A stretch of 59,847 nt of DNA. It comes from a virus. This document shows positions 7,208 to 59,847 of this stretch, piece by piece. A program made the position numbers and the translations under genes. The stretch spans positions 1-59,847 of the IMG/VR virus record IMGVR_UViG_3300046543_000644; one strand, written 5' to 3'. The notes beneath the pieces are model-generated. The model worked only from the letters and a program-made list of their open reading frames with translations, searched no databases and had not been told where the DNA came from. The stretch's first letter is position 1; each line of letters starts with the position of its first letter.

Positions 7208-7229
7208 GCGGGGCTTGGCGAGGCCCCGC
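7208..7229 (+). terminator. short hairpin before int
   Basis: GCGGGGC at 7208-7214 pairs with GCCCCGC at 7223-7229, loop 8 bases. It lies 15 bases after the stop of the 64-aa gene and 28 bases before the int start codon. It may partially terminate transcription or shape translation of int. Confidence 0.45.
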
Positions 7230-7256
7230 CGACGGGAGGCGTCAGGAGGACGCATC

Positions 7257-8504
7257 GTGGCGTATGCCGAAAAGCGTGTCAGCACTGCCAAGGGAAGCAA
7301 AGGCAAAGTCTCATGGCGTGCACGCTACAAAAAGCCTGACGGATCGTGGGATAGCGAGCCTGGATTCCCGACGAAGAAGACCGCCGAGGCTTTCGGTGAC
7401 GCACAGGAAGCGGCCATTGCCGAGGGCCGGTGGATTGACCCCAAGCTTTCACAGGGAGAGTTCGGCGAGTGGACGCGCCTGTGGATGGCCTCCCGCGAGC
7501 CGCGCGGGCGCACCCGCGGCACTCGCTGGGAGAAGCTCGACGCGCACATCCTGCCGCGCTGGGAGCACACGCCCCTGGCGGCGATCAACTGGTTCGACGC
7601 CGAGAACTGGGCCAACGCGCTGCCGTGTGACGACACCACGGCGACGAAGTGCCTGAGCATCATGTCGACGATCCTCACCGGTGCCGTCGACGCCAAGCGC
7701 CTGCTCGTCAACCCGCTCGCCAACCGCCGCCGTTCGCGGCCGGCCAGCATCAAGGCCGTGCTCCAGGCGAAGGACCAGACCGAACTCTGGTCTCCGCCCG
7801 AGGTGGTGCTGCAGCTGGCGCGCCGCGCGGGGCCGCTCGACGGGATGCACATCATCACCACGGCGTTCGCCGGCGTCCGCTGGGGCGAGGGCCTGGCGCT
7901 GCGACCGGCCTCGCTGGGGACGCGGACCGAGCGGTACGACGGCGGGGAGTTCACGTGCCCGACCCTCAGCATCCTGGAGGAGGTGGCCGAGTACCAGCTG
8001 CGCGGCCCGGCGGGGGAGAAGCTCGGGCTGTTCCTCGGCATCGAGCCCCTCAAGACGCCGGAGAGCAAGCGCAGCATCGACCTGCCGCCGTTCCTCGCCG
8101 AGCTGCTGGCCGCCTACGCGGACAACGCCAAGCACGAGTTCCTGTTCTGTACCCGCGCCGGCGGCCACTGGCGCCGCGGGAACTTCGGACGCCAGGTCAT
8201 GCGCCCGGTTGCAGACGGGCGCGAAGCGCTGAAGGTGTCGAAGGGCCATGCTCCGCGCGAGGCCTGGGAGCCCATCATGCGCGGTGTCACGATGCGGGAC
8301 CTGCGGCACACCCACGACACCTACCAGGAGGAGATCGGGGTCAAGCCCGCGCTCGCCTTCGAGCAGGCCGGCCACAAGCGGCCCGGCATCAAGGCCGTGT
8401 ACCAGCACCCCACGCCGGGGATGCGGCGCGTTAGACTGGACGGGTTGCAGGAGATCTACGAGCGCGCGATGCGGACGCTCGGATGGTCGAGAGTCTGGGA
8501 GTAG
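7257..8504 (+). CDS. int: tyrosine-type site-specific integrase
   Basis: A 415-aa tyrosine recombinase that would integrate the phage at a tRNA-Val gene. The start is GTG 7257, preceded by AGGAGGA at 7244-7250. An AP2-like arm-binding N-terminus (WRARYKKPDGSWDSEPGFPT) and a SAM-like core-binding domain come first. The catalytic domain shows R208 (GVRWGEG), R350 (MRDLRHTH), the GH pair at 372-373 and nucleophile Y382 (VYQHP). The usual first His of the HxxR box is Arg347. attP begins 6 bases beyond its stop codon, the classic int-attP arrangement. Confidence 0.95.
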   Translation: MAYAEKRVSTAKGSKGKVSWRARYKKPDGSWDSEPGFPTKKTAEAFGDAQEAAIAEGRWIDPKLSQGEFGEWTRLWMASREPRGRTRGTRWEKLDAHILPRWEHTPLAAINWFDAENWANALPCDDTTATKCLSIMSTILTGAVDAKRLLVNPLANRRRSRPASIKAVLQAKDQTELWSPPEVVLQLARRAGPLDGMHIITTAFAGVRWGEGLALRPASLGTRTERYDGGEFTCPTLSILEEVAEYQLRGPAGEKLGLFLGIEPLKTPESKRSIDLPPFLAELLAAYADNAKHEFLFCTRAGGHWRRGNFGRQVMRPVADGREALKVSKGHAPREAWEPIMRGVTMRDLRHTHDTYQEEIGVKPALAFEQAGHKRPGIKAVYQHPTPGMRRVRLDGLQEIYERAMRTLGWSRVWE

Positions 8505-12043: not shown

Positions 12044-12104
12044 CCCCGCTCGCCTGCGATAGCGTCGCCCCCACAGCACCAGGCGGCGAGATCAGGGGAC
12101 AGGC

Positions 12105-12662
12105 GTGTCGGGATCATCGGTATGGAAGAACCTCAGCGAGCACACCGTCTACGAGAACCGCTGGTTCCGGATCAACCTCGCCGACGTCGAGCTGCCCGAC
12201 GGCCGCCACCTCGACCACTACCTCATGCGTCTGCGCCCCGTCGCACTCACAGCGGCCATCAACGACCGGGACGAGGTGCTACTGCTGTGGCGGCACCGAT
12301 TCATCACCGACACCTGGGGCTGGGAACTCCCGGCCGGCGTCGTCGACGACGGCGAGACGATCCTTGAGGCGGCTGCCCGCGAACTGCTGGAAGAGACCGG
12401 GTGGCGCGCGGGCCCGCTGTACGAGCTCCTCACGGTCGAGCCCAGCAACGGCCTCACCGACGCCCAGCACCATGTCTACTGGGCTGACGGGGCGACGTAT
12501 GTCAGCGAGCCAGAGGACGGCTTCGAGTCCGAGCGCCGTGAATGGGTGCCACTGTCGCGGGTGCCGGAGCTGATCGCAAAGGGCGAGGTGAAATCCGCGA
12601 ACGCCGTCGCCGCGCTGCTCCTGCTGCATCACCAGCGGGCCGCTGGGACCAGCCCGGTCTGA
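12105..12662 (+). CDS. Nudix hydrolase, Pif-like
   Basis: A 185-aa Nudix protein from GTG 12105 with AGGGGA upstream. The Nudix box is complete at residues 78-100: G78, E84, R92, E93, E96, E97, G99. It would hydrolyse a nucleoside diphosphate derivative, substrate unknown. A Nudix protein beside a TPR regulator is the arrangement of AICEs, where pSAM2 Pif blocks redundant transfer into cells already carrying the element. Here it may give a comparable immunity or be metabolic cargo. Pif-like function is inference from family and context. Confidence 0.85.
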   Translation: MSGSSVWKNLSEHTVYENRWFRINLADVELPDGRHLDHYLMRLRPVALTAAINDRDEVLLLWRHRFITDTWGWELPAGVVDDGETILEAAARELLEETGWRAGPLYELLTVEPSNGLTDAQHHVYWADGATYVSEPEDGFESERREWVPLSRVPELIAKGEVKSANAVAALLLLHHQRAAGTSPV

Positions 12663-20513: not shown

Positions 20514-21973
20514 CAGAACGCTCTCAAGGCGAGGGCCAGCAGGGTGGCGTTGGCGTTGTTGATGTCCTGCAGGGACGTGTAGTTGTTGTTGATGTCGGCC
20601 AGGGTGAACCCGGCGGCTTCCAGGGTCAGGGGCCAGCCCTCTGCCTCGACGGCCGAGAACGACCAGAACCGGTAGTCGTTGATCCACTGCGGGGCTTCGG
20701 AGTCGTCCGTCACCAGGACGTAGCAGTCCGTCAGGGCATTCGAGACCTGCGAGCGGATCTGCAGGACGCCCTCGGTAGCGCCGTCCAGTACCTGCTCCAG
20801 GGCGTTGCCCGAAGCGAGATCCTCCGTCCGCAGGCTGATCGTCGACTTGAAGCCGGACCGGCGCTTCGAGACGCCGACCATCCGGCCGCCCACGTTGAAG
20901 AGCGTCGTCTCCCGGGTGCGGTCCTTCGAGGGCCAGTCCTGCAGCTGGACCGCCGCACCAATGCCGTTGATCGCATCCGACACGATGTCGGTGGACACCG
21001 TCGAGGTGACCGGGCTTGCGGCCACGGTCCAGGTGTTGCCGTTCGCGTCCGTCAGGTCCGCCTGGTAGGTCACGGCCACCCCGAACGGCTGCTCTGCGTC
21101 GACGCGCAGCAGCGTGTCCGCGCCGGACACCGCCACCGCGGTCGCCGCCCGAACCGGGATCCGTGTCGACCCGACGACCTCGTAGATCGAAGCGCTGCTG
21201 ATCTGCTCCGCCAGCATCCCCGTCACCGTGCAAACGTTCCGCGGCGGCGTCGTGGCCTGCTGCGTGATGGCGATGGCCGCCGACGCCTCACGGAACCGGA
21301 CCAGGCCGGCGGCGCCCGTGCCGGCCGCCGAGAGGGTGGCCGCCACGGTGGGGATCTGCGTGCCGGGCCCGGCAGTAACCGAGCACGTCGCGATCGCCAT
21401 GGAGCCCTTGTTGCCCAGCGCGGTGATCTGGTCGTCGGAGGCCTCGGTGACCGTGCCGAACGTGACGCCCGTCGCGGTCACGGCCTCCGCGCTGAACGTC
21501 GCCGTCGACACCGGGACGGCGTAGCCCATGACGACGAAGTCGCCGACGGCCCACGTCACAGCGCTGTTGCACACCGCGGCGAACCCGGTGCCGCTGCTGG
21601 TGTCCGACCCCTCGGAGTCGAACCACCGCCACCCGGTGCCGGCCGACCGCTGAAGGATCTGGATACGGCCAGCGAGGTAGGTTCCGGTGGCGGTGGGGAT
21701 CACCGTGGTGGGTGCGGCGTCCGACCCGAGAAGGACACGCACAAACCACGTGACCCGGCGCGGCCCCGTCCCCGAGCCGAACGTGCCACCGCCACCGGAG
21801 ATCGAGTCGACCAGCGTCCAGCCCGACGGGGTCGAGGGAATCGACTCCGTCGGGGACCCGGACGTGACCGTGAGGACCGCCAGGCGGCCGGCCGCAACGC
21901 CGGTGCCGTAGGCGGGTGTGATCGTGGTGGCGTTCGAGGCCAGGGCCCCCGTCGACGTCAGAGTGATCGTCAT
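20513..21973 (-). CDS. minor tail (distal tail) protein
   Basis: A 486-aa protein. The N-terminal two-thirds is a Ser/Thr/Gly-rich beta region (TITPAYGTGVAAGRLAVLTV). The C-terminal part (SKDRTRETTLFNVGGRMVGV, KSTISLRTEDLASGNALEQV) resembles distal tail proteins that follow the tape measure gene. It probably joins tube and baseplate hub. The ATG at 21973 overlaps the tape-measure stop by 4 bases. Confidence 0.75.
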   Translation of the reverse strand: MTITLTSTGALASNATTITPAYGTGVAAGRLAVLTVTSGSPTESIPSTPSGWTLVDSISGGGGTFGSGTGPRRVTWFVRVLLGSDAAPTTVIPTATGTYLAGRIQILQRSAGTGWRWFDSEGSDTSSGTGFAAVCNSAVTWAVGDFVVMGYAVPVSTATFSAEAVTATGVTFGTVTEASDDQITALGNKGSMAIATCSVTAGPGTQIPTVAATLSAAGTGAAGLVRFREASAAIAITQQATTPPRNVCTVTGMLAEQISSASIYEVVGSTRIPVRAATAVAVSGADTLLRVDAEQPFGVAVTYQADLTDANGNTWTVAASPVTSTVSTDIVSDAINGIGAAVQLQDWPSKDRTRETTLFNVGGRMVGVSKRRSGFKSTISLRTEDLASGNALEQVLDGATEGVLQIRSQVSNALTDCYVLVTDDSEAPQWINDYRFWSFSAVEAEGWPLTLEAAGFTLADINNNYTSLQDINNANATLLALALRAF

Positions 21974-33197: not shown

Positions 33198-34598
33198 CTA
33201 GAACGACGGGGCGATGAGGCCGGTCCCGCCGATCTCGACCACCGACTGCGGGTAGCGCGCGGCGGTGAACGCCAGGTACCCGTAGATCTGCAGACGCACG
33301 GTCAGGTTCTGCGACCCGACGTCCGGCAGCACCCGGGAGCGGATGCCGCTCTCGAAGAGCAGCAGGTCCGAGGCGCGGATGATGTGGATGACGTCCTCAG
33401 TGGTGGACGCACCCAGGAGCGTCGGCATCGACGGGTCCGTGATGACGGGCAGCCCGTGCATGTGGCCCACGACCTGCTCGGCCGCCACGGCGCCCAGGGT
33501 CGCGATGGCGTTCATGCTCGCGCCGGAGGTGTCCGGCACGACCAGGGGGCGGCCGGTGGTGTCCGCTGCGGCCAGGAAGTACGCCCAGCGGCGCGGGTGC
33601 ATCACGATCGCGGTCGGCGGCATGAAGCGCGCCGTGTGGACCCTCTGGATGCCGTCGGCGATCTTGCTGTACAGGCCGGCGACCGTCGGGGTGGCCGTGG
33701 TGTACGCGATCGTGACGATGCTCGCCGTGGTCCGCACACCGGTGACCTGGCCCGAGGATCCGGACCCGCCGATGACCTGCAGGTCGAGCTTCGTCGCGTA
33801 GTCCGCGTTCAGGTCAGAGAAGATGACCTGGTCGAAGCTGATCGGCGACTGGTCCAGGAGCTGGATCGCCACGTCCTGCTGACCGGCGATGGTCTTGACC
33901 GGGGCAGTGATCGACGTGTCGGTGAGGTCGGTCTCGGAGACACCGGTGTTGTCCGCCGTCTGGGCTGCGGTCGTGGTCCCGGTGGCGACCTTCGGGATGT
34001 TGATGCTGTCCGTGCCGGGCGGCAGGGCCTGGCCCGTGCACAGGTTGGCGTAGGCGCGGCCGGCGCGGGCCAGCGACACGTACTGCTGCATCATCCACAG
34101 CGGCGGCACGAAGTACCCGCCGTTGCCGTCGGTCCGCAGCAGGTCGCGGTACTCCTTGTCGGTCTCGACGTCCTGCGCGTGGCGCCGCAGGCGGTCGATG
34201 GAGCCGCCGTCGCCGTCCATGCTCATCTGGACCCGCATCAGGTCCTGCAGGTACGACTTGCCGTTGCCGGCCTCGTAGGTGCGTCCCTCCTTCACGGACT
34301 GCACCCGGGCCTGGGCCCGGCGCACAGCGAGCGCACCGGCGGTGACGCCCTTCTCGCGCTCGTCCTCCTCGGAGAGCTCCGTGATGCGCTCGTCGAGCGC
34401 CCGCAGGTCCTCGTCCTTGGTCTTGACGTTCGCGGTGAGGGTCCGGAACTCCGTGTCCTCTTCCGGGGTGAGGTCCTCGCGGGCCTCATCCATGGCGAGG
34501 TCGGTGATGGCCTTGCGCTCCGCGAGCATCTGCTCGCGGTCCTTCGCGGTCTGCTCGCGCTTGGCGATGAGCCGCTTGAGTCGCTCGTCCATGGGCAT
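33198..34598 (-). CDS. HK97-type major capsid protein with N-terminal scaffold region
   Basis: A 466-aa protein. Residues 1-100 form a charged coiled coil (AERKAITDLAMDEAREDLTP, ANVKTKDEDLRALDERITEL), the delta-domain scaffold removed in maturation. The HK97 fold follows (GGYFVPPLWMMQQYVSLARA, KVATGTTTAAQTADNTGVSE, ARFMPPTAIVMHPRRWAYFL). AGGAGG lies 7 bases upstream of the ATG. The protease gene directly upstream supplies the cleavage. Confidence 0.95.
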   Translation of the reverse strand: MPMDERLKRLIAKREQTAKDREQMLAERKAITDLAMDEAREDLTPEEDTEFRTLTANVKTKDEDLRALDERITELSEEDEREKGVTAGALAVRRAQARVQSVKEGRTYEAGNGKSYLQDLMRVQMSMDGDGGSIDRLRRHAQDVETDKEYRDLLRTDGNGGYFVPPLWMMQQYVSLARAGRAYANLCTGQALPPGTDSINIPKVATGTTTAAQTADNTGVSETDLTDTSITAPVKTIAGQQDVAIQLLDQSPISFDQVIFSDLNADYATKLDLQVIGGSGSSGQVTGVRTTASIVTIAYTTATPTVAGLYSKIADGIQRVHTARFMPPTAIVMHPRRWAYFLAAADTTGRPLVVPDTSGASMNAIATLGAVAAEQVVGHMHGLPVITDPSMPTLLGASTTEDVIHIIRASDLLLFESGIRSRVLPDVGSQNLTVRLQIYGYLAFTAARYPQSVVEIGGTGLIAPSF

Positions 34599-34753
34599 GG
34601 CAGAGCCTCCTTCTGACGCTGGGATGGGGGTCTGGACCCGTGCCGGGTCGGTGATGCGCCCTCAGCCAGTGCCAGGCTTCGGTCAGTGCAGGTGGCCAGT
34701 GCCAGGCCGCCGGTGGTGCCGTCCCGCCGGATACCGGCGGGGAGTCTTGGGTG
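34599..34753 (-). promoter_or_regulatory. protease-capsid spacer with hairpin
   Basis: This 155-base gap contains CCCGCCGG (34723-34730) paired with CCGGCGGG (34734-34741), 12 bases beyond the protease stop, and a CAGTGCCAGG direct repeat near 34668 and 34698. It could reduce transcription before, or carry a promoter for, the abundantly needed capsid gene. No coding capacity is apparent. Confidence 0.45.
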
Positions 34754-35494
34754 CTACAGCTGCAGGTCGCCGCCGACGACGGCCATCGCCTCGACGAGGG
34801 ACAGGCGGCGCCCGGCCTTCGGCGGCGTCAGGGTGCGGCGCAGCGACGACAGGGCCTCAGAGGCGCGCTCCAGCTGGGCCGGGGCGTCGTCGCCCAGGGC
34901 CCGCATCTCCGCGAGGGCCTCGTCCGGGTTCACCCCGGTCAGGAACTCCATCGCGGCGCGCATCGTCTTCAGCTCGGCGCCAGCCGCGGGGTTCGCGCCC
35001 CAGTTGACGACGCTCACGTCGCCCTTGTGGAGGGACACCTCGGTCAGGGTCCGCTGGGAGTCGTCGTCGGACCACTTGTCGGCCTTGGTCCGGAACGCGA
35101 AGCTCATCTCGTCCATGTCGCCGCGCTTCATCTTCGTCTGCAGCCGCTGGACGTCCGGGTCGGCGGTGTCCAGGTGCGCCTTGACGAACAGGCCGCGGGC
35201 GTCCGTCGAGAGCTGCATCGTGCCGCTCTTCGTCCTCGCGAGCGGCATGCCCTCGTGGTTGATGAGCAGGTGGACGTCGGGCTGGGCCGCGAGCGTCACC
35301 TGGAACGCCCTGCGGTCCACCGTCTCCGTCCAACCGCCGCGCGACGGCCCGCCGAGGACGTCATACGGGTTGTCGAACACAGAGGCGTGACCCCGCAGGA
35401 CCAGGCCGCCCTCGGAGCCCTCGCGCAGCTCGAACTCGGTGACAGCAATGTGCCGCCGTTCCGGTGCGTCGATCAGTGCATGCCTGTCACCCAT
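34754..35494 (-). CDS. HK97-type prohead protease
   Basis: A 246-aa serine protease of the phage prohead (U35-like) family: FELREGSEGGLVLRGHASVF at 21-40, catalytic His80 in LLINHEG, and Ser131 in MSFAFR. It processes the capsid scaffold domain in the assembled prohead. It lies between portal and capsid genes, overlapping the portal by 8 bases. The C-terminal extension is helical. Confidence 0.92.
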   Translation of the reverse strand: MGDRHALIDAPERRHIAVTEFELREGSEGGLVLRGHASVFDNPYDVLGGPSRGGWTETVDRRAFQVTLAAQPDVHLLINHEGMPLARTKSGTMQLSTDARGLFVKAHLDTADPDVQRLQTKMKRGDMDEMSFAFRTKADKWSDDDSQRTLTEVSLHKGDVSVVNWGANPAAGAELKTMRAAMEFLTGVNPDEALAEMRALGDDAPAQLERASEALSSLRRTLTPPKAGRRLSLVEAMAVVGGDLQL

Positions 35495-36761
35495 GGGTCC
35501 TGCCCTCCGAGTCGTCGTCCTTGATGAGATGCAGCGGCCGGCCGTCGGAGCGCACCGCAGGGACAGCGACGGGCTTCCCTGCCTGCAGCGGCAGCGCGGT
35601 GTAGTCCTGGCCCTTGCCGTCCGGGATCGGCGCCCAGTCCTCCATGTCGCGGAGCTCGTCCTTGTTGTTCAGGCCGATGAGCAGGGCCTTCTCGTACATC
35701 TCGATGCGGGTCTTCATGTCCGCGAGGATCAGCCCGTTCGGGTTGAACTTCGCGTACTGGCCACGCGGCAGCAGGTCCGTGAAGTGCGACCCGATCAGCG
35801 AGAGGTACGGCTGCAGGGCGAACGACACCAGCTCGATCTGCCGCTGCTCGGGCGAGGAGTACGACATGGAGCCGCCGGTCGTGCCGCCGATCATCTCCGG
35901 CGGGATGCCGTAGATCGACGCGATCGTCGTGTTCGACAGCTGCATCGTCTCGACGAACTTCGCCTCGTTCGGCGAGATCGTGAACGGGTCGTACTCCCAG
36001 TCCCGCCCGTAAACGATCGGCTCGTGCGACCGGATGGCCTGCACCAGCCGGGTCTTGATGATCTGCGCTTCCTTCTGGTCGACGGTCTGCGCGTTGTTCT
36101 TGAACCGGCCCGGCGGCACCCCGCCGCCGCGGAACCAGTCATCCGTGAACTTCTGCGCCGCCAGACCAGTCGACACCGTCACCGCGTAGGCACCCATCGG
36201 CGACAGGCCCCACACACGGCCCGGCAGCTGGAACCACGGGATATGCACGATGTCCTCGGACGGGATCTTCTCCCCGAGGTAGAACCACTGCGGATTCGTG
36301 AAGGAACCAGGTGCGCCCATCGGCGTCATCTGCAGGCGGTCCATGCACAGCACATTCGCCGGGTCCAACCACTCGACCTGCGTCGGGTACTCCAGCCGGT
36401 CCCTCGACGTCACCACCCCTACCGCGTTGCCGCGGTACACCAGCGACGTCACCGCCCGGAACACCCAGTCGTGCAGGTTCCCCTGCGCGCAAGGCTTCAC
36501 GAACAGCGGCGGCGGCGCCAGGAGCTTCTTCGAGCCGCCCGCCGGCGGCTGCCGGTAGACGTTCAGCGGCAGGCCCGCAATGTTCGACGCCAACAGGCGA
36601 CCCGCCGCAAGGCACGCACCCAGGCGAAGCGCACCGTCCTCGTTCACCGCGGCCGGGGCCGCCAGCGGCTCCGTCGGCCAGGACACGCTGCTGGCGTCCA
36701 GCACGCGCTTCTCGGTCTGCGTATCGGCCTCGGAGGCTGCGCGCCGGAACGGATTGCGCAT
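35487..36761 (-). CDS. portal protein (HK97 type)
   Basis: A 424-aa portal protein: ASNIAGLPLNVYRQPPAGGS near 60-80, the stem/wing region (WDLRG-like segments replaced by KFTDDWFRGGGVPPGRFKNN), and the typical SNTTIASIYGIPPEMIGGTT and SYSSPEQRQIELVSFALQPY of the family. Twelve copies form the DNA entry vertex. ATG 36761 has an AAGGGGG ribosome site upstream. It follows the large terminase by 11 bases. Confidence 0.93.
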   Translation of the reverse strand: MRNPFRRAASEADTQTEKRVLDASSVSWPTEPLAAPAAVNEDGALRLGACLAAGRLLASNIAGLPLNVYRQPPAGGSKKLLAPPPLFVKPCAQGNLHDWVFRAVTSLVYRGNAVGVVTSRDRLEYPTQVEWLDPANVLCMDRLQMTPMGAPGSFTNPQWFYLGEKIPSEDIVHIPWFQLPGRVWGLSPMGAYAVTVSTGLAAQKFTDDWFRGGGVPPGRFKNNAQTVDQKEAQIIKTRLVQAIRSHEPIVYGRDWEYDPFTISPNEAKFVETMQLSNTTIASIYGIPPEMIGGTTGGSMSYSSPEQRQIELVSFALQPYLSLIGSHFTDLLPRGQYAKFNPNGLILADMKTRIEMYEKALLIGLNNKDELRDMEDWAPIPDGKGQDYTALPLQAGKPVAVPAVRSDGRPLHLIKDDDSEGRTHG

Positions 36762-36772
36762 CACGACCCCCT

Positions 36773-38290
36773 TCAGAAGACGCTGTCGAGGAGGTTGTAC
36801 TGGGCGCCCGTCATGGCCTGCGTGCGGGTCGTGAAAGCCCACCGGGCCAAGGTCATTGCCACCAGCGGGCCGATGTCGGCGTCCGCGTCCTTCCGCGACC
36901 AGGCGATGATGTCGCCCGTCTGCCGAGTCCGCGCGCCGCGCACCGCCAAGTCCAACTGCTTGTGCGGCACATGCCGGAACGAGTTCTCCCGGACCGCGTC
37001 GAGGATCTGCCCCGTCGCCGCCGCCATATCGCCCGCCGTCGTTACCGCGAGGTCACCCGCCAGCGGGTGCTCCGGGTCGTCCGGGCGCCGCAATCCCGCC
37101 TGCTCCAGGGCCACGGCGAGCGACGCCGCCGTCGACCGCCCCATCCCGATCGCCGCCGGGTTCAGCACCCCGCGCAACTCCAGCAGGCGCGGCACCAGCC
37201 AGTCCGTGCCCGGCCGATAGTCCACCAGCTGCACATGCCCCAAGCCGTCCTCGCGCTGCCCGTACACCACCACCGACGCCCAGTCCCGCAGCGGCGACAC
37301 ATCACAGGCGATCGCGATGCCACCCGCACGGTGCGAATCCGGATCCGCCAGCCGCGCCCACGCCGCCGCATCGATCACCTGGTGGTTCATCGTCACCGCC
37401 GGCCAGATCCCCAGCCGCTCCCGCGCGAACCCCGTATCGCCCATCGAGGCACGCTCGCGCTGCACTGTCTCCGCGGTGATGCGGATCCCCAGCGCCGGGT
37501 TGGCCTGCGCCCAAAGCTCCTGGTCGTCGAGGTCGATCTGGTCGAGGTGGTCGAGGTCGCCCGCGATGCCCCAGTCTCGCCACCCGAACGAGGCGCCGCC
37601 GCCAGCCTCGGCCCGCGCCTTCAGCGAGAACATCACCTCGCCGGTGTCGCCCTCGAGCGGCGGGGTGCTCGTGTAGATGATCTGAGGGTTCTTCACCGCC
37701 GACATCGTCGGCAGCAGCGCCTCGTGCTGCATGAAGGTGTACGCGAGGGCCTCGTCGATGATGTTCAGGTCCCCGGTGAAGCCACGGCCCGACCCCTTCG
37801 ACCGGGCGATGAACCGCACCCGCGCCCCGGTGTCGAGGCGCTCGAACGACTCCTCGCCGTTCGTGTTGATGACCTTGACCATAATTCCGTCAACGTCAAT
37901 CATGTTGTCGCTCACGCGCTTTCCCAGCCGCGTAATCAACTGCCGCATTCGACGAAAAGACTCCATCGACGTCTTGTATTCGTGGGACGACCACATGATG
38001 AGCCGCTCCTCGAGGAGGAACAGCCCCGCCAGTACGCGGATCTCCAGCAGCGAGCCCTTGCCGTTCTGCCGCGGCACGACCTCGCCGTACTCGAAGCACG
38101 ACCACTTGCCGTCAGCCCGCACTGACAGCACGATCGCCGCCGCATCCTCCTGCCAGGCATCCGGCACCAGGCCCGCGCGGCGCGCCAGCTCGCACGCCTC
38201 CGGCCCCAGCGTCCAGGCGGCCGGTGGCGCCAGCTCAACCCTGGGCCTGCGCCCGGCGCTCGGCGATCTTCCCGGCGAGACTGAGGACAC
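36773..38290 (-). CDS. terminase large subunit
   Basis: A 505-aa packaging ATPase-nuclease. The start is GTG 38290 with AGGGGGG upstream, overlapping the small subunit by 56 bases. Walker A PRQNGKGS is at residues 73-80 and Walker B LNIIDE at 175-180; the nuclease domain includes IACDVSPLRDWAS. It cuts and pumps DNA into proheads. The type and neighbours are those of HK97-like actinophages. Confidence 0.93.
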   Translation of the reverse strand: MSSVSPGRSPSAGRRPRVELAPPAAWTLGPEACELARRAGLVPDAWQEDAAAIVLSVRADGKWSCFEYGEVVPRQNGKGSLLEIRVLAGLFLLEERLIMWSSHEYKTSMESFRRMRQLITRLGKRVSDNMIDVDGIMVKVINTNGEESFERLDTGARVRFIARSKGSGRGFTGDLNIIDEALAYTFMQHEALLPTMSAVKNPQIIYTSTPPLEGDTGEVMFSLKARAEAGGGASFGWRDWGIAGDLDHLDQIDLDDQELWAQANPALGIRITAETVQRERASMGDTGFARERLGIWPAVTMNHQVIDAAAWARLADPDSHRAGGIAIACDVSPLRDWASVVVYGQREDGLGHVQLVDYRPGTDWLVPRLLELRGVLNPAAIGMGRSTAASLAVALEQAGLRRPDDPEHPLAGDLAVTTAGDMAAATGQILDAVRENSFRHVPHKQLDLAVRGARTRQTGDIIAWSRKDADADIGPLVAMTLARWAFTTRTQAMTGAQYNLLDSVF

Positions 38291-38582
38291 CGGAACCCCC
38301 CTGCTGCGGCACAGACACCGGCCGCGCACCCTGGCGGATTTCGGCGAACATTCTCTGCAGGGCCATTGATTGCTGCCGAGATTCTGAGAGAATGGGTGCA
38401 CAGGCAGCGAATTCCGATGACACCTCTCGGATCTGCTTGTTGAGCAGCTCCAGCCGGTCCGCAATACGGCAAGCCTCTTCGAGAAGAATCCGATGAGGCG
38501 GTGTCAGGTCCCACATCTCCAGGGACTCGGTCCACATCCGCCGGCCGCGGGCCCCAAGCCCGACCGGAGCCTTGACCGTCAT
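38235..38582 (-). CDS. terminase small subunit
   Basis: A 115-aa helical protein from ATG 38582: GLGARGRRMWTESLEMWDLT, PPHRILLEEACRIADRLELL, AALQRMF-like middle, and a basic end. This matches P27-like small terminases, which bind the packaging site. It lies directly downstream of a non-coding segment with long inverted repeats, probably its target. It overlaps the large subunit gene. Confidence 0.82.
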   Translation of the reverse strand: MTVKAPVGLGARGRRMWTESLEMWDLTPPHRILLEEACRIADRLELLNKQIREVSSEFAACAPILSESRQQSMALQRMFAEIRQGARPVSVPQQGGSGVLSLAGKIAERRAQAQG

Positions 38583-39501: not shown

Positions 39502-39822
39502 TCAGATGCTGCTGACGTCGACGCTCATGGGTACGGCCCTGACCCAGGGCCTGGCGCGTTCCTTGTTGGCGCGGATGCTGTTGCATTTGCGATGGCAGAG
39601 CCGCAGGTTGTTGCGGTCGAGCGGCTTGCCGCCCTTAGCCAGGGCGTGGAGGTGGTCGACGGTGCGGGACATGGGGTGTGTGGCTGGCAGGTCTTGGTCG
39701 ACCTCATGCCCGCACCAATGGCAGTACGTCTCCTCGGCGAAGACGCGTTCCCGCATGCGGTCCCATGGCCGGCCGGTCCTGCCTTGCCGCACGTTCTTGG
39801 GCTGGCCCTTGGTCGTCGGCAT
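39502..39822 (-). CDS. small HNH endonuclease
   Basis: A 106-aa HNH protein: DRMRERVFAEETYCHWCGHE, SRTVDHLHALAKGGKPLDRN and NLRLCHRKCNSIRANK, with metal Cys pairs on both sides of the DH motif. This size and position are typical of HNH factors that support terminase cleavage. A terminator follows it. Confidence 0.85.
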   Translation of the reverse strand: MPTTKGQPKNVRQGRTGRPWDRMRERVFAEETYCHWCGHEVDQDLPATHPMSRTVDHLHALAKGGKPLDRNNLRLCHRKCNSIRANKERARPWVRAVPMSVDVSSI

Positions 39823-41837: not shown

Positions 41838-41992
41838 GGGTCGATCCTCTCGCGGCTCGGGCCGCCGCTCTGTGGGTGCGGAGAGGAAGCCACCCACCCG
41901 TCATTGTGCCCGTTTCCGGGGTCTGGCAGGGCTCCGATTGTGCGCCTCCCTGCCTCCCTAAACGCGCATCTTCCCTGCTCAGGGTCAGGGAT

Positions 41993-42038
41993 GCGGCCAG
42001 TGAGGCGCTTAGGGAGGAGTCCTTCGCTCACTGGCCGC
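41993..42038 (-). terminator. 12-bp hairpin after the FtsK-like gene
   Basis: GCGGCCAGTGAG (41993-42004) pairs perfectly with CTCACTGGCCGC (42027-42038), loop 22. It lies 7 bases past the translocase stop. The rest of the 41838-42044 gap (with CCTCCCTGCCTCCCT repeats near 41946) may carry the promoter of the next leftward set. Confidence 0.75.
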
Positions 42039-42044
42039 GTCCCT

Positions 42045-44237
42045 TCACTCGGGGTCGGTCTCGTCGTCGTCCAGGATGCGACTTTCGAGGGCCCGCAGGA
42101 TCTTCTGTCGGTCGACGACGGGGTAGCCGTCGTACCGGTGCGGGGCCGCGTCGTAGTCCCGCAGAATGCCCGTCAGGTCAATGAAGTTCCAGTCCCGGTA
42201 CTCGCCCGGGTTGAGCTCGGCGAGGCGCTGGAGGAACTCGGGGGTGCGTAGCCGCGGTTCGCTGCCGAGGACGGCCGCGAAGTCGGCGAGGTGGTCGACG
42301 GGTTCGGCGGCCGGCCCGGTCTGGGTGGTCGTACCGGAGCGGAGCGCCTTGGCACGGTCGGTGATCTCGACGGCCTCGTCGTCGTTGATGAAGTGGGTGC
42401 GGACGTTCAGCGAGACCTGGCCGGGCGGGAGCTGGACGCCGTCGCCGGCGACGACGAGCTGACCCTTGTCGAGGCCTTGGCGGAGCTTGTGGGGTGCGGC
42501 GCCGGCCTTGACGGGGGATTCGCCGAGCGCCATGGAGGCCTGGGATTCGGTGCCGAGGACGAGGGCGGCGCGGATGTGGTTGCCTTCGCGGGAGCGCTTG
42601 GGCAGGTTCTGGTCGGTGGGGTCTTGGGTGCCTTCCCAGATGGTGACGTTGACGGCGCGGCCCTGGTCGTGGATGCCCTTGACGGCCTGGAAGTACCTGC
42701 TGGTGGCCTTGGCTCCGCCGTAGGGGGCGCCGTACTTGGTGCTCCCGTTGTCCGCGATATATGTCTCCCTGGCGCCGGATCCGTAGGCGACCTGTGCTTC
42801 GTCGACGATGACGACCAGGGGCGTGAAGACGGTGCCCTTGGGTGCCATGAGGCGGCGCTGCATCTCGGTGAAGACGGCCTCGACCATCTCGGTCACCAGG
42901 ATGACGTGGTCATCGGTCGGGCCCTCGATCAGTACGGTGGCGAGGCCCTCGAACATGTCCCAGTCGCCGACGCCCTTGAGGTCCCCGATGCGGAACTCGA
43001 CGGTGGGGTCGAGGGTCAGCCACAGGGCCAGGGCCCTGAGCGACGCGGTCTTGCCCTGGTTGGAGAGCCCGGTGACCAGGACGTGTTTCTGGAAGAGGCT
43101 GAGGGTGGCGGCGTCGCCGCGCAGGTCGAGGCCCCAGGGCGCGCGGCCGGTCTTGTAGTTGGCGGTCATGGTGGGGTCGGTGACCAGTGGCGATGCGGGC
43201 ACGGGTTCGTCGAGGGCGCCGCTGTCGGCGATCCAGAGCCGGACGGTGCGGGCGGCGGGGGCGACGCTGACGTAGACCTCGTGTTCGTGCCGGCCGAGGT
43301 TCTCGGCGAGCTTGCGGCGCCGGTTCATGACCTCTTCGGTGGATGCCCCGGATGGCAGGGTGGCGTCGACTTCGACGCCGCATCCGGCGATGACGATGGG
43401 GCTGAGCATCGCGGCGCCGGCGTCGCCCATGTCCTTGATGGCGGATTGGAGCTTGCCGATGCCGAGGTCGCGTAGGGCGGTGACGACGATGGATGGGGTG
43501 ATGGGCGCGCCGTCGGTGCTGTGGTGGCCGTGGGGCATGACCCAGGCGGGTGTGTTCCCGTGGCGCTTGCCGATGGCCCAGAGGGCGGTGACGGCGACGA
43601 ACGGTGCCGCGGTCAGGACTGGCCCCCAGAGGAACGCGATGACGGCGCAGATCCAGGCTGCGGTGTCGATGGCGCCGGTGATGGGGGCGATGACGTCGGC
43701 GATGTGGTGTTCGGCGATGGCCATGACGATGCCGATGGCGAGGAGGGTGCCGGTGCCGAGGGCGGTGGCGATGGCGGCGCCGCGGGCGAGGTGGACGGGT
43801 GCGGCGAGGAGGTCCATGCGCCTGCGGTGGCGGGCGGCACGGAATGCCATGCCGCGGGCTTCCCATTCCTGGGCTGCTTCGACGTTCCCGATGGCCTCAG
43901 CTGCACGGATCATTCGTTCGTAGCGGGCTGCGGTGCGGCCGTCCCAGGCGCGGCGCCCGGCTACGAGGGTGCCGGCGGCGATGTAGGCGGGGTGGCGGGC
44001 GAGGAACCGGCCGAGGGCGATGGTGCGCTCGTGGGTGGCAACGACGCGGATGCGCCGGGCCGCACGTCGGCCGCGGCCAGGTGCGGCAGCGTCCTGCTCG
44101 ACCTCCGTGGCCTGCTGCTCGGCGCCGGTCGTCACGATGGTGCCCTCGATGGGCTCCCGGTCCTGCGGGACGAGCTTGTCGAGCTTGACGGGCTGCGCGT
44201 GTCCGTTGGTCCGCGGTGCGGTTTCGGTGAGGGTCAT
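42045..44237 (-). CDS. FtsK/SpoIIIE-type DNA translocase (TraB/TraSA-like)
   Basis: A 730-aa P-loop ATPase. After a 100-residue cytoplasmic start there are membrane segments near residues 150-225 (ATALGTGTLLAIGIVMAIAE, ICAVIAFLWGPVLTAAPFVA). The motor domain has Walker A LVTGLSNQGKTAS near 386-398 and Walker B LVVIVDEAQ near 475. This layout matches single-protein conjugative translocases of Streptomyces plasmids and AICEs (TraB of pSVH1, TraSA of pSAM2), which move double-stranded DNA between hyphae. It lies with Spd-like membrane proteins. A segregation role in a plasmid-like prophage is an alternative. Confidence 0.85.
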   Translation of the reverse strand: MTLTETAPRTNGHAQPVKLDKLVPQDREPIEGTIVTTGAEQQATEVEQDAAAPGRGRRAARRIRVVATHERTIALGRFLARHPAYIAAGTLVAGRRAWDGRTAARYERMIRAAEAIGNVEAAQEWEARGMAFRAARHRRRMDLLAAPVHLARGAAIATALGTGTLLAIGIVMAIAEHHIADVIAPITGAIDTAAWICAVIAFLWGPVLTAAPFVAVTALWAIGKRHGNTPAWVMPHGHHSTDGAPITPSIVVTALRDLGIGKLQSAIKDMGDAGAAMLSPIVIAGCGVEVDATLPSGASTEEVMNRRRKLAENLGRHEHEVYVSVAPAARTVRLWIADSGALDEPVPASPLVTDPTMTANYKTGRAPWGLDLRGDAATLSLFQKHVLVTGLSNQGKTASLRALALWLTLDPTVEFRIGDLKGVGDWDMFEGLATVLIEGPTDDHVILVTEMVEAVFTEMQRRLMAPKGTVFTPLVVIVDEAQVAYGSGARETYIADNGSTKYGAPYGGAKATSRYFQAVKGIHDQGRAVNVTIWEGTQDPTDQNLPKRSREGNHIRAALVLGTESQASMALGESPVKAGAAPHKLRQGLDKGQLVVAGDGVQLPPGQVSLNVRTHFINDDEAVEITDRAKALRSGTTTQTGPAAEPVDHLADFAAVLGSEPRLRTPEFLQRLAELNPGEYRDWNFIDLTGILRDYDAAPHRYDGYPVVDRQKILRALESRILDDDETDPE

Positions 44238-44434
44238 CGGGTCCTGACCTGGGCGGTGGGGTGGGTGGCGCGCCAGGCGATGGCGCAGAGCAGCAGGACG
44301 AGCAGCGCGGCGGGCTGGCCGAGCACCCAGGGGATCGCGGTGCTGGCGGCGGGCATGAGCAGGTGCCGGGTCTGCCAGGCGAGGACGAGCAGCAGGCCGA
44401 CGATGACCCAGGTGGAGGGGCGGAGCGCGGGCAT
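44234..44434 (-). CDS. small two-pass membrane protein (Spd-like)
   Basis: A 66-aa protein with two membrane helices (STWVIVGLLLVLAWQTRHLL and LGQPAALLVLLLCAIAW). It overlaps the FtsK-like start by 4 bases, so they are made together. Small membrane proteins encoded with TraB-type translocases are the Spd proteins that promote intramycelial spread. Identification is by size and context. Confidence 0.7.
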   Translation of the reverse strand: MPALRPSTWVIVGLLLVLAWQTRHLLMPAASTAIPWVLGQPAALLVLLLCAIAWRATHPTAQVRTR

Positions 44435-44452
44435 GGCGGTACCTCCGGGGCG

Positions 44453-44482
44453 GGGCCGGGCACCGTGGTGGCTGCCCGGCCC
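44453..44482 (-). terminator. hairpin within the transfer cassette
   Basis: GGGCCGGGCA (44453-44462) pairs with TGCCCGGCCC (44473-44482), loop 10. It stands between the KOW-like gene and the small membrane protein plus FtsK pair and may set their relative expression. Confidence 0.5.
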
Positions 44483-44495
44483 GGGGTTGGGTGGT

Positions 44496-44774
44496 TCAGC
44501 GGTGTTCGAGCTCTTCCGGTCCGAAGCCGGTCGAGCTGGTCTCGCCGGGGAGTCGGACGGCGACGATCTCGCCGACGGTGCCAGCTACTTCGCCGGTGGC
44601 GCCGATGAAGGATCGGCTGCCGGGTTCGCTGTAGTTGTCGCTGGTGACGCGGACGCTGTCGCCTCGCTTGAATCCCATGGGGTGATCCCTCTCGGTGGGT
44701 TCGTCGTCGCCGAGGTTGGCGAGGGCGCGGGTGATCTGGCTGGGGGTGAGGCCGTGCGCGTCCTGGCCGGTCAT
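44496..44774 (-). CDS. KOW/SH3-like small protein
   Basis: A 92-aa protein from ATG 44774 (TGATG overlap); an inner ATG at 44678 with GAGAGGGA upstream is a strong alternative giving 60 aa. The C-terminal 60 residues (FKRGDSVRVTSDNYSEPGSR, FIGATGEVAGTVGEIVAVRL) look like a KOW-type beta-barrel. It may bind DNA, RNA or a partner in the transfer cassette. Unknown function. Confidence 0.65.
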   Translation of the reverse strand: MTGQDAHGLTPSQITRALANLGDDEPTERDHPMGFKRGDSVRVTSDNYSEPGSRSFIGATGEVAGTVGEIVAVRLPGETSSTGFGPEELEHR

Positions 44775-44920
44775 CGCTTGACCGGCTTCGCGGCCGGACG
44801 GTGCGCGGGGGCGTGCACGGCTGGCCGGTGGACGGGTGCGGCGGTGGAGGTCTGGCCGTGGACAAAGAGCCAGATGGCGAGAAGCGCGACGCCGACGGCG
44901 AGGGTGCCCTTGAAGGTCAT
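44771..44920 (-). CDS. 49-aa membrane or secreted small protein (SpdD-like)
   Basis: From ATG 44920 the product begins MTFKGTLAVGVALLAIWLFV, an N-terminal membrane helix, followed by HGQTSTAAPVHRPAVHAPAH, a Pro/Ala/His-rich tail. The stop overlaps the next ATG (TGATG). It is too short for ordinary gene finding but lies neatly between the large Spd-like gene and the KOW-like gene with spacings of 3 and -4 bases. Likely part of the transfer cassette. Confidence 0.65.
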   Translation of the reverse strand: MTFKGTLAVGVALLAIWLFVHGQTSTAAPVHRPAVHAPAHRPAAKPVKR

Positions 44921-44923
44921 GGG

Positions 44924-45955
44924 TCAGGCCTTCTTGGTGTCGCGGTCGCGGACCTGGCGGACGTAGGCCTCGGTGACGGTGACCCCGTAGCCGTCGAGCA
45001 GGTTGGAGATCTCGGCGGGCTCGTAGGTGGGGCGCTTGTCGAGGGCGATGCGGATGGCTTCGGCCTTGGGGAGCGACGCGAGGGTGGGCGGTTCGAGCGG
45101 GGGTCCGTCGTCCAGCAGTGCATCTGCCTCGTCCTGGGTGGCATCTGCCGCATGGGGCGCTTCCCCGGCGGGCTGGCGCTGGAGGACTGCGAGGAGCCGC
45201 TCGACCTGTTCGTCGCTGATTCGGGGTGCGAGGGCGGGCACGGTGGCGTCCGGCGTTGCAGTTGCCACTGGGCTGATGGCAGGTGCCATGAGCTGCTCGA
45301 CGGTGATGTCGGCGGGGGCGCGCAGGGCTCGGAGTTCGGCGGTCAGCGCGCGGGCGGCGTCGAGTTCGCGGTTCTCGATCTCCAGGGCGAGGGCGGTGTG
45401 GACCTGGTCGCGTTCGCGCTCCAGCCGGAGTTGGTAGGCCCGCGGCAGGCGGTGGGTGGTGGTCTCCAGCCGCAGCCACCAGGCGGCTTTGACGCCGAGC
45501 GGCACGAGGGCGGCGACGATGCCGACGGCGATCATGTGGTGCAGGACGCCGGTGACGATGATCGCGCCCATGCTGGCGGCCATGAAGAACAGGCCAGCGA
45601 TCTGGGAGGCGCGACGGGCCTTGGGGTGGGTCTGGCTCATCCACTCCCCGAGGAGCGCGTAAATCCAGAGCCCGTCGAAGACCGCGGCGACGGCGTAGGC
45701 GACGAGGGCGGGCACGAAGAGGCTGAAGAGTTCCCCGATGGCGGCGATGCTGAGCGCCATGGCGAGGATGGTGAAGCCGATGGCCAGGCGGAACATGACC
45801 AGCTTCACTGCGGCGCGGGTGTCCTGCGGGGGCCTGGGGCCGGGCTGGTGGCCGACGAGGGTTTCCTCGGCGATGCCGTTGACGATGGTGGTCTCGTAGA
45901 CGGGGACGGGGTTGATCTTTGCGCGGCTGAGCGCGCTAAAGTGCTGGCGGATCAT
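44924..45955 (-). CDS. multi-pass membrane protein, SpdB/DUF2637-like
   Basis: A 343-aa protein from ATG 45955. Four membrane helices at about residues 55-165 (GFTILAMALSIAAIGELFSL, ALVAYAVAAVFDGLWIYALL, AGLFFMAASMGAIIVTGVLH, AVGIVAALVPLGVKAAWWLR). A coiled coil (LRLERERDQVHTALALEIEN) follows, and the C-terminus ends in a small HTH-like segment (YEPAEISNLLDGYGVTVTEA). This resembles the SpdB/DUF2637 membrane proteins of Streptomyces conjugative elements. First gene of the transfer operon, directly downstream of two palindromic operators. Confidence 0.75.
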   Translation of the reverse strand: MIRQHFSALSRAKINPVPVYETTIVNGIAEETLVGHQPGPRPPQDTRAAVKLVMFRLAIGFTILAMALSIAAIGELFSLFVPALVAYAVAAVFDGLWIYALLGEWMSQTHPKARRASQIAGLFFMAASMGAIIVTGVLHHMIAVGIVAALVPLGVKAAWWLRLETTTHRLPRAYQLRLERERDQVHTALALEIENRELDAARALTAELRALRAPADITVEQLMAPAISPVATATPDATVPALAPRISDEQVERLLAVLQRQPAGEAPHAADATQDEADALLDDGPPLEPPTLASLPKAEAIRIALDKRPTYEPAEISNLLDGYGVTVTEAYVRQVRDRDTKKA

Positions 45956-46087
45956 GGAGGTCGTATCTCCAATGGTCAAGTGGTCCCGGTCCGCGATTGG
46001 CGTCGCTGGCCGGGGCCCGCTGAATATTCGATTCTGGGGATGCCGGGCGGGCTCGTTGCATGTGCCGTGGCATTTGCAACGTCCTTG

Positions 46088-46139
46088 CTTCAAGCCCAAT
46101 CTTGAAGGTGCCGTGCCGCAGTGTCAAGCGATTGCTTGA
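46088..46139. promoter_or_regulatory. two palindromic operators of the transfer operon
   Basis: CTTCAAG-CCCAAT-CTTGAAG (46088-46107) and TCAAGC-GATT-GCTTGA (46124-46139) are perfect inverted repeats sharing TCAAG/CTTGA half-sites. They stand between the leftward transfer operon and the rightward small regulator. The second overlaps the regulator's -35, so autoregulation and joint control of transfer genes are likely, as for Kor-type repressors. Confidence 0.75.
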
Positions 46140-46164
46140 AGCCTGCCGGAATCGGCCCTACCCT
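46136..46164 (+). promoter_or_regulatory. promoter for a leaderless regulator mRNA
   Basis: TTGAAG (46136-46141), a 17-base spacer, and TACCCT (46159-46164) are followed by only 6 bases before ATG 46171. Transcription should begin at or next to the start codon, a leaderless message. No ribosome site is present. Confidence 0.65.
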
Positions 46165-46170
46165 GAGCCC

Positions 46171-46407
46171 ATGACCGAACCCGCGCCCGCCGCGATCCTC
46201 GCCCTGGTGGCCGACCTGAACACCGTCGCCGACCCGGCCGAGCGCTTCCGTGCCGCGCGCGACGCCCGGGCCGCCGCCACTGACGCCGTCGACGGGGTCC
46301 TCGCCGCCGCGGTGCTGGAGCTCAAGGACGGCCGTTCCTGGCGCGAGGTCGGCGCGGTCCTCGACATGACCGGCAGCCGGGCCGAGCAGATCGCCCGCCG
46401 CCGGTAA
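46171..46407 (+). CDS. small HTH regulator (Kor-like by position)
   Basis: A 78-aa protein, helical, whose C-terminal part (LELKDGRSWREVGAVLDMTG, SRAEQIARRR) reads as a sigma-like or HTH_23-type helix-turn-helix. It is transcribed away from the transfer operon behind the operators it probably binds. Its size, orientation and leaderless start match the second regulator at 53431. Likely represses the SpdB-FtsK operon. Confidence 0.7.
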   Translation: MTEPAPAAILALVADLNTVADPAERFRAARDARAAATDAVDGVLAAAVLELKDGRSWREVGAVLDMTGSRAEQIARRR

Positions 46408-50865: not shown

Positions 50866-52371
50866 CTAGTTGAGGACGGCCATGACGCGTTCGCCAACCC
50901 ACTGGGCGACGTTGCAGGACACCGCGTTCCCGGCCTGCATGGTCTGCTCGCCCTTGTTGCCGAGGACGATGTACTCGTCGGGGAAGCGCTGCGCGAGGAG
51001 CTGCTCACGCGGTTGAACCATGCGGTAGCGGCAGTCCTCGATGCTGATGTCCGGGACGGGGTTGGGGACCAGGCCGGCGGAGTCGATGGTCGACAGGGTG
51101 TGCAGCGGCTCGTTGGTGGTCTTGGTCAGCGCGTTGCGGTAGGGGATGACCAGGCCGTGGTGGTTGCCTCCGGCGGAGATCGTCGCCAACGGCTTGGTGA
51201 CGGGCTGGCTGGTCTGGTGGTTGCGGTACTCGACGACGAACGCGTCCTGGGCGTCGGGTGGAGTGCACAGGGCCTCGAAGCCCTTCGGGTTCGCCAGCCG
51301 GGTCCGCATGGGTTCGGCGGTGGTGGTCGGGGTGGTGTTCCAGGTGCCGCCGGCCGGGACGAGCAGCGCGTCGCCGATCTTCGCGGTGCGGGTGGGCAGC
51401 GGTCCGCCGTCGGCGGGGAACGCCCGGCCGTCGTGGCCGGAGTGGTTGACCGTCAGGATCATGCGGCGCTTGCCGAGCATGTCCAGGCCGGACTGGATCC
51501 GGCGGACCGTGTTCGCGGCGAGCGGGCGCTTGCCGACGGAGGCCCTGTCGGCGATCCGCACGCCGAGGTTCGACCAGTCGATGATCGAGGAGGCGGGGCG
51601 GATGTACGGCTCGACCAGGGCGTGCCTGCAACGGTCGTTGGGGCAGCGGTAGTCGTACTGCTCCTTGTACTTCCCGATCGTGCGCCCGTTGCGCCACGAC
51701 TGGACCGCGCGCACGTCCTGGTCGCAGGCCTGGCACCACGCCGGGGGCCGGGGTTTGAGGTCGGGGAGCGGGATGCCCTTCGCGGTGAAGACCAGGTAGA
51801 TCCTGTCTCTCCACTGCGGCGCCGGAACATCCCCGATGTGCGCCGAGGACACCGACACGACCTGCGAGTTGTAGCCGAGGATCTCCATGCCGGAGCGCCA
51901 CCAGTCGAACAGCTCCCAGTCGACGGCGAACTCGACGACGTTCTCGCACAGCACCGCGCGGTACCGGTGGACCTCGGTCGCCCGGATGACGTCATAGGCG
52001 GTGGCCCTGGTGCGCTCCCATGCGGCGGACGCGACGGGCCCGTAGTCCTCCATGTCGAACGCGGCCTGCCCGTGGATCGGCTTGGTGGTGCGCTTCCGGC
52101 CGCCGGCCGGTGAGATCTCGGTGCAGATCGGGGACGCCCAGAGCACGTCGGCGCCGGGCAGGCGGCGCATGTCGTACTTGTTGATGTCCTCGCACAGGTG
52201 CTCGGCCTCGGGGTGGTTCGCGGCATGGGTCTCGACGGCGCGGGCCCAGTGGTTGGCTGCCAGCTTGAGCTGGTAGCCGGCGGCGACCAGGCCGGTCGAG
52301 GACCCGCCCGCACCGCAGAACAGGTCAACGAACGTCAGGGCAGTGCTGTCGTGGCGGTAGGCGGTGGTCAC
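50866..52371 (-). CDS. C5 cytosine DNA methyltransferase
   Basis: A 501-aa enzyme that should methylate cytosine in a specific sequence. Motif I VDLFCGAGGSSTGL is at residues 15-28, motif IV is SPICTEIS with catalytic Cys83 (SPxCT instead of the usual PPCQ), motif VI is ENV at 142-144 and motif X is QAGNAVS near 478. A zinc-ribbon insertion (CQACDQDV near 219, CPNDRCRH near 245) sits in the target region. No partner restriction enzyme is nearby, so it is an orphan likely protecting phage DNA or adjusting expression. Confidence 0.92.
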   Translation of the reverse strand: MTTAYRHDSTALTFVDLFCGAGGSSTGLVAAGYQLKLAANHWARAVETHAANHPEAEHLCEDINKYDMRRLPGADVLWASPICTEISPAGGRKRTTKPIHGQAAFDMEDYGPVASAAWERTRATAYDVIRATEVHRYRAVLCENVVEFAVDWELFDWWRSGMEILGYNSQVVSVSSAHIGDVPAPQWRDRIYLVFTAKGIPLPDLKPRPPAWCQACDQDVRAVQSWRNGRTIGKYKEQYDYRCPNDRCRHALVEPYIRPASSIIDWSNLGVRIADRASVGKRPLAANTVRRIQSGLDMLGKRRMILTVNHSGHDGRAFPADGGPLPTRTAKIGDALLVPAGGTWNTTPTTTAEPMRTRLANPKGFEALCTPPDAQDAFVVEYRNHQTSQPVTKPLATISAGGNHHGLVIPYRNALTKTTNEPLHTLSTIDSAGLVPNPVPDISIEDCRYRMVQPREQLLAQRFPDEYIVLGNKGEQTMQAGNAVSCNVAQWVGERVMAVLN

Positions 52372-59749: not shown

Positions 59750-59847
59750 CGTGGTGCCTTCTTTCGGCAGGAGCGGCGGGCTTGGTGGGCGGTGGGGCCC
59801 GGGGGTCGGTGACCCCCCGCGCCCCCCCCGCCCCGGGGGGGGGGGCC
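59750..59847. other. initiator upstream region and window end
   Basis: This segment precedes the initiator start codon. GGGGGTC (59801-59807) pairs with GACCCCC (59811-59817). The last 27 bases are long C and G runs, including eleven G at 59835-59845. They could be a genuine terminus or an assembly break at a homopolymer. No gene or clear promoter is seen. Confidence 0.4.

Follow-up and report, generated by a model that had tools for sequence, protein, structure and literature searches.

The stretch of DNA considered here (the window) comprises the full length, 59,847 bases, of the IMG/VR virus record IMGVR_UViG_3300046543_000644 and is devoid of terminal repeats. Its leftward genes include tra (42045..44237, minus strand), which encodes a 730-residue, membrane-anchored, FtsK-type translocase of double-stranded DNA (dsDNA). 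The tra stop codon is immediately followed by a non-coding array of short repeats (41944..42044, minus strand) that resembles a cis-acting locus of transfer (clt), while a gene for an SpdB-like membrane protein of 343 residues (44924..45955, minus strand) is located upstream. An earlier note, made from the letters of the window, had placed a conjugation-type transfer cassette of a phage at 42045-46407; the parts inside this interval were confirmed, but the interval ends at the tra stop codon and misses the array, which supplies the strongest evidence.

The N-terminal part of Tra contains three hydrophobic segments, with helices at residues 119-225 in an AlphaFold2 model, and the Walker A motif (GLSNQGKTAS) is intact. 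A C-terminal winged helix is predicted by the same model at about residues 649-726, and its wing corresponds to residues 700-709 (RYDGYPVV); the mean predicted local distance difference test score (pLDDT) of the model is 69.5, and the winged helix reaches about 83-90 up to residue 720. In the Foldseek comparison FtsK motors were ranked first (E 1.4e-11), followed by the conjugation ATPase TcpA, and the FtsK/SpoIIIE motor was recognized in this way, the Pfam FtsK match lying below its cut-off. The membrane-anchored FtsK-type ATPase predicted by the earlier note was hence borne out by the three hydrophobic segments and the motor. The best plasmid match of Tra, with 58% identity across 91% of its length, belongs to the plasmid type of Streptomyces sp. 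NBC_00859 (NZ_CP108827), a 13.5-kb Streptomyces element with a gene set like that of the actinomycete integrative and conjugative elements (AICEs). Moreover, the profile of the Tra family matched pIJ101 TraB with 96.5% probability, although the two proteins share only about 26% identity over 235 residues. FtsK/SpoIIIE-like phage proteins of phrog_1358 possess the same type of motor (E 2.3e-13 to Tra), but they are distant and the match is limited to Tra residues 287-643. A sequence search of the PDB returned nothing useful, and tblastn of Tra against isolated phage records gave no match. The ratio of nonsynonymous to synonymous substitution (dN/dS), about 0.3-0.4, indicates that Tra is under purifying selection.

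Scans for relatives of Tra yielded 16 viral and 42 genome loci, and most of the genome loci are AICEs, equipped with spdB, RRQRL, primase-polymerase (prim-pol), DUF3631, GntR and int genes. Among the viral records, all of the phages compared being predicted ones, a terminase is encoded in 12 of 16 and a portal in 9 of 16; at least ten (pro)phage records other than the window carry this Tra, and the terminase gene follows tra within a few kb, in the same orientation, in about ten loci. The closest relative (76-77% identical) originates from Streptacidiphilus carbonis, where it adjoins a GntR gene and an integrase, and its viral record contains no terminase or portal of the families tested. In a tree that left out chromosomal FtsK, Tra clusters with the Tra proteins of AICEs and plasmids, and the phages fall into a strongly supported set together with four AICEs, for which about three changes between the two labels are needed. 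Repeated crossing of Tra between phages and AICEs is the simpler reading of this tree than one origin, which is not formally excluded. The family is present in 108 of the 393 surveyed genomes of the genus Streptomyces. Identity, scans, tree and the pIJ101 TraB profile all place the 730-residue protein with the Tra of AICEs and plasmids rather than with packaging ATPases, in line with the family assignment of the earlier note.

The array downstream of tra consists of AGGGACG (42038-42044) and AGTGAGC (42026-42032) on the minus strand, AGGGAGG (42011-42017) and AGTGAGG (41999-42005) on the plus strand, and a tandem pair of AGGGAGG (41953-41959 and 41945-41951, both minus). It follows the fixed layout seen in the relatives, where units of 7-8 bp run first in direct orientation, then through a palindromic centre and on in inverted orientation, followed by a conserved spacer and the tandem pair, and the array occupies the same place, directly 3' of tra, in nearly every relative, whether phage or AICE. 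Among 173 distinct loci, the standard units are lacking only in L016 and L186, both of which have differing wings. The phage relative L016 has ACCTAAC repeats downstream of tra instead (about 11990-12100), a possible new site class. In a more distant Tra subfamily from Streptomyces genomes (L190, L191, L196, L198 and others; 31-35% identity), the same unit types stand directly 3' of the gene.

The array came to light only through comparison with relatives, and no exact 8-mer occurs at least four times within 250 bp anywhere in the window. In a scan of the window for RGKGAGGC, the only three matches of the form A[GT]GAGGC are located inside the array. When 2.9 million viral contigs were searched with a 22-base core pattern, four contigs were found; the longer core is regarded as specific because tra adjoins it in all four. 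When viral contigs were scanned for the tandem CAGTGAGGC, seven contigs lacking this Tra came up beside a single true site, which makes the tandem unspecific when used by itself. Two contigs without this Tra (L063:7982 and L067:2831) share CAGTGAGGCAGTGAGGCAGGTGAGGC in a common context, and L063 also has a prim-pol gene; the shared sequence may represent a related site that belongs to a different element.

The closest described counterpart is the clt of plasmid pWTY27, which is needed for transfer, takes in the final 16 bp of traA together with the next 159 bp, and has 7-bp direct and inverted repeats that are footprinted by TraA (PMC3583192). The window array matches this site in place, size and structure; both lie at the 3' end of tra and are built from short direct and inverted repeats. 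The differences are the repeat itself (TGACACC in pWTY27) and the nature of the knowledge: binding and transfer were measured in pWTY27, whereas the window array is known from sequence. The TraB proteins of pIJ101 and pSVH1 are likewise FtsK-type membrane translocases whose C-terminal winged helix reads short repeats (PMC3583192, PMC4170104), the repeats of pSVH1 being 8 bp long and termed TRS (PMC3583192); the clt of pIJ101, however, does not adjoin traB (PMC3583192). The NBC_00859-type plasmid and the AICE relatives agree with the window in having the array directly 3' of tra and SpdB upstream. The search for TraB-type recognition repeats suggested by the earlier note has accordingly turned up a clt-like array, which covaries with the DNA-binding wing of Tra; on these two grounds, both read from sequence only, it is a candidate cognate clt.

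The covariation was followed in the 173 distinct loci, to which the sample had been enlarged from a first set of 55 loci with only three pairs and an underpowered sign test. His in the wing is accompanied by GGGGAGGC (GGGGAG units) in 31 of 31 loci and Asp by AGGGAGGC (AGGGAG units) in all 95; Glu goes with A at unit base 1 (6/6), and Asn is mixed, with 11 A and 5 G. The GYP wings, which are mostly of phages, go with AGTGAGGC (AGTGAG units) in 9 of 9 loci, the window being set apart as mixed, and GGTG accompanies a GYP wing that has Gln. In a tree from which the winged helix was left out, 12 phylogenetically independent pairs support the His code, a mean of 11.8 changing in the same direction and none in the opposite one (p = 0.0005). 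Of all alignment columns, the wing residue is the most informative on unit type (0.67 of 0.81 bits). Moreover, KKSNGRMVVHRDHVLRAL with AGGGAG (L029, L031, L034) and KKSHGRMVVHRDHVLRAL with GGGGAG (L051) resemble natural point mutants. The link between GYP and AGTGAG is based on 2-3 tree changes and does not reach significance by itself; since these wings with their AGTGAG units occur mostly in phages, the site would have followed Tra inside phages.

The 343-residue protein, whose best start is at 45955, has four to five hydrophobic segments and possibly a C-terminal helix-turn-helix (HTH); its Pfam matches, including those to an HTH at the C terminus, are all sub-threshold. Nevertheless, comparison of its small family with pIJ101 SpdB by hhalign gave a probability of 94.3% (E 9.6e-8), and comparison with the SpdB of an AICE, which is 67% identical to pIJ101 SpdB, gave 91%. 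In the control set, every annotated SpdB outranks all other multi-transmembrane proteins of the loci, of which the first reached 37% and the remainder stayed below 3%. The protein, ranked above all of these non-SpdB controls, is a remote homologue of pIJ101 SpdB as judged from profile comparison, and the Spd-like partner that the earlier note had seen in a four-helix membrane protein is confirmed. DUF2637 membrane proteins with C-terminal HTH-like ends replace SpdB upstream of tra in L015, L007, L016 and L019; considered as SpdB relatives, those of L015 and other loci showed no profile link, and they may represent a second, unrelated kind of Tra partner.

Three further small genes on the minus strand, all of them present as the earlier note had described, separate spdB from tra. 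A 66-residue protein with two hydrophobic segments (44234..44434) overlaps the start of tra, and L004/L020 have a homologue (53% identity) in the corresponding position. A 60-residue protein (44496..44678) is likened by eye to KOW/SH3 domains and has no PHROG match, and a 49-residue single-pass membrane peptide (44771..44920) is known from its sequence. Divergent from this operon, a small HTH regulator of 78 residues is encoded at 46171..46407 (plus strand; start most likely 46171), which matches the PHROG family 'HTH DNA binding protein' (phrog_686, E 2e-5) and has homologues in the phage loci L018 and L015. Two palindromes, presumed to be operators, lie between the divergent genes (46088..46139): the inverted repeat CTTCAAG-N6-CTTGAAG at 46088-46107, and related half-sites with TCAAGC-N4-GCTTGA at 46124-46139. 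Both the palindromes and the divergent regulator are as the earlier note had them; the regulator is a small HTH protein and not a GntR-type Kor protein as in AICEs.

The remainder of the window contains the genes of a tailed phage (Caudoviricetes), with terminase, portal, capsid and tail genes. The terminase large subunit (36773..38464, minus strand; phrog_9, E 1e-70) is encoded on the strand of tra and downstream of it; an HNH endonuclease gene (39502-39822) separates the two. Portal, head protease and major capsid protein are encoded at 33198..36842 (minus strand), as indicated by PHROG matches and related phage DNA, and together with the terminase gene they span 33198-38464; the capsid and protease DNA is about 67-72% identical to that of Mycobacterium and Gordonia phages. 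The tape measure gene is found at 21970-26925, and a YqaJ recombinase and a DnaC-like loader are also encoded. An integrase of the tyrosine type (7215..8504, plus strand; phrog_1, E 1e-31) also provides the integrase feature shared with AICEs. The prophage with full head, tail and lysis genes described in the earlier note is correct for head, tail and integrase, whereas lysis is limited to an endolysin-type stretch inside the tape measure protein and a papain-like peptidase. The additional suggestion that the element might be partitioned as an episome was not borne out: a tyrosine integrase is present, and no partition or plasmid replication gene was noticed among the annotated genes, for which no dedicated search was made. 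Judged from the relatives and from a G+C content of about 70%, the host is probably one of the Streptomycetaceae.

Unlike the window, the AICEs carry prim-pol/DUF3631 replication genes, a GntR repressor, RRQRL and DUF6284, none of which gave a tblastn match in the window, where phage structural genes are found instead. A Prim-Pol profile also found no match in the window, and the DUF3631 profile gave no signal on its control; the tests covered these two kinds of replication module. The element is a tailed phage that integrates and probably has a mycelial actinomycete as its host, and it carries a predicted transfer module of the AICE/plasmid type.

The reading that best accounts for these observations, to which a probability of roughly 60% is assigned, is that the phage keeps a working Tra-clt-SpdB module for dsDNA transfer that would act on its own genome. 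In the proposed mechanism, the winged helix of Tra would bind the array repeats, and a Tra hexamer would be loaded at the membrane on circular phage DNA, either excised or replicating. Partnered by SpdB, Tra would then pump the phage dsDNA through the membranes of septa or hyphal tips, so that it reaches the adjoining compartment or a hypha nearby. The small HTH regulator and the two palindromes may control the module, the regulator keeping it silent in the lysogen. None of the sequence-level results that the earlier note had named as contrary to its proposal was obtained.

Several points nevertheless weigh against this interpretation. The AlphaFold model of Tra is only moderate in confidence, and a tree of the winged helix alone leaves five changes, three of them well supported, again with no opposite pair. 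The array and the winged helix are neighbours, so exchange of the two as a block could yield part of the covariation. Furthermore, the window array mixes AGGGAG and AGTGAG units (A and T) and fits its GYP wing only partly; its nearest relative has a KSNG wing with AGGGAG units, and the mixed array may be a specificity change caught half way.

The strongest competing explanation, unlikely as it is, holds that Tra and SpdB act only within the host mycelium, pushing phage or prophage DNA through cross-walls or into spores without transfer to other mycelium, whereby every compartment would be colonised during lysogeny or infection. SpdB proteins are involved in spread through the mycelium of the recipient (PMC4170104), a SpdB homologue is kept, and virions already give the phage access to new hosts; on the other hand, in AICEs and plasmids Tra and clt of this type drive transfer from one mycelium to another (PMC3583192). 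As to the destination of the DNA, other mycelium or the same one, sequence does not separate the two uses. It is rather improbable that the module is a passenger from AICEs without function for the phage, as might be suspected from the repeated movement of Tra between phages and AICEs and from the partial mismatch of array and wing, given that the module recurs, in the same position ahead of the terminase, in at least ten phage records, that Tra is under purifying selection and that the array units have followed the wing within phages. Still less credit is due to the array being a replication origin, operator or terminator rather than a loading site of Tra: direct and inverted repeats of iteron type are also a feature of plasmid origins, such as the pWTY27 iteron (PMC3583192), and behind the stop codon the array is able to fold into strong hairpins, but it is kept in phages without AICE replication genes (prim-pol and DUF3631 were not found in the window) and tracks the DNA-binding wing of Tra, whereas a terminator needs no protein-matched bases. 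That Tra is a chromosome-segregation ATPase reading polar sites (KOPS), a phage packaging ATPase or an accessory to the terminase is very improbable in spite of its FtsK motor fold and the position of tra just upstream of the terminase in most phages, packaging being ruled out by the phage's own terminase and the AICE Tra as nearest kin, genome-wide KOPS-like sites by the single cluster of units, and membrane segments and a SpdB partner being kept.

Provided that the phage does operate such a transfer module, it would spread through the mycelium by DNA pumping as well as by virions. A single type of transfer module, accompanied by its DNA site, appears to pass between AICEs and several lineages of phages, although phages are normally kept apart from conjugative elements in the classification of mobile DNA; in Streptomyces, pZL12 is an exception. 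The title of Zhong et al. 2010, as cited in PMC4487206, describes pZL12 as a plasmid-phage with transfer and a plasmid/lytic cycle, and its transfer requires tra (PMC3583192). Going by that title, pZL12 is likewise a tailed phage genome with conjugative transfer, but it carries ParA/ParB and a Tra3-like gene, and tblastn found no match in it to the window Tra. A conjugative phage accordingly has a precedent, and the window phage would be another form with a different Tra. A broader proposal, to which somewhat less than even odds are given, is that the integrating phages of actinobacteria include a widespread group of true phage-AICE hybrids, each of which loads its genome onto a hyphal dsDNA pump by way of a private, wing-coded clt, spreading by conjugation as well as by virions, and that the wing-base code predicts transfer specificity across the Tra family. 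The rule would read His with G and Asp or Glu with A at unit base 1, and GYP wings with T at base 3, and it would allow predicting which elements can transfer each other's DNA. For AICEs, the array addresses a gap, as no clt has been described for the archetype pSAM2 according to Choufa et al. (PMC9513070).

A Nudix protein encoded at 12105..12662 (plus strand; PF00293) is 41% identical to one in the AICE locus L052. The Nudix protein Pif of pSAM2 blocks redundant transfer (PMC3218068), and by analogy the Nudix genes of these phages may, as a weak suggestion, encode Pif-like transfer immunity factors. Two Nudix proteins each, one with an HTH, are encoded beside the divergent small HTH regulator in the phages L015 (4582-5627) and L018 (3272-4302). 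At the end of the window (59800-59847), runs of C and G resemble an assembly end artefact, and the phage early region encodes a C-5 cytosine DNA methyltransferase of 501 residues (50866-52371).

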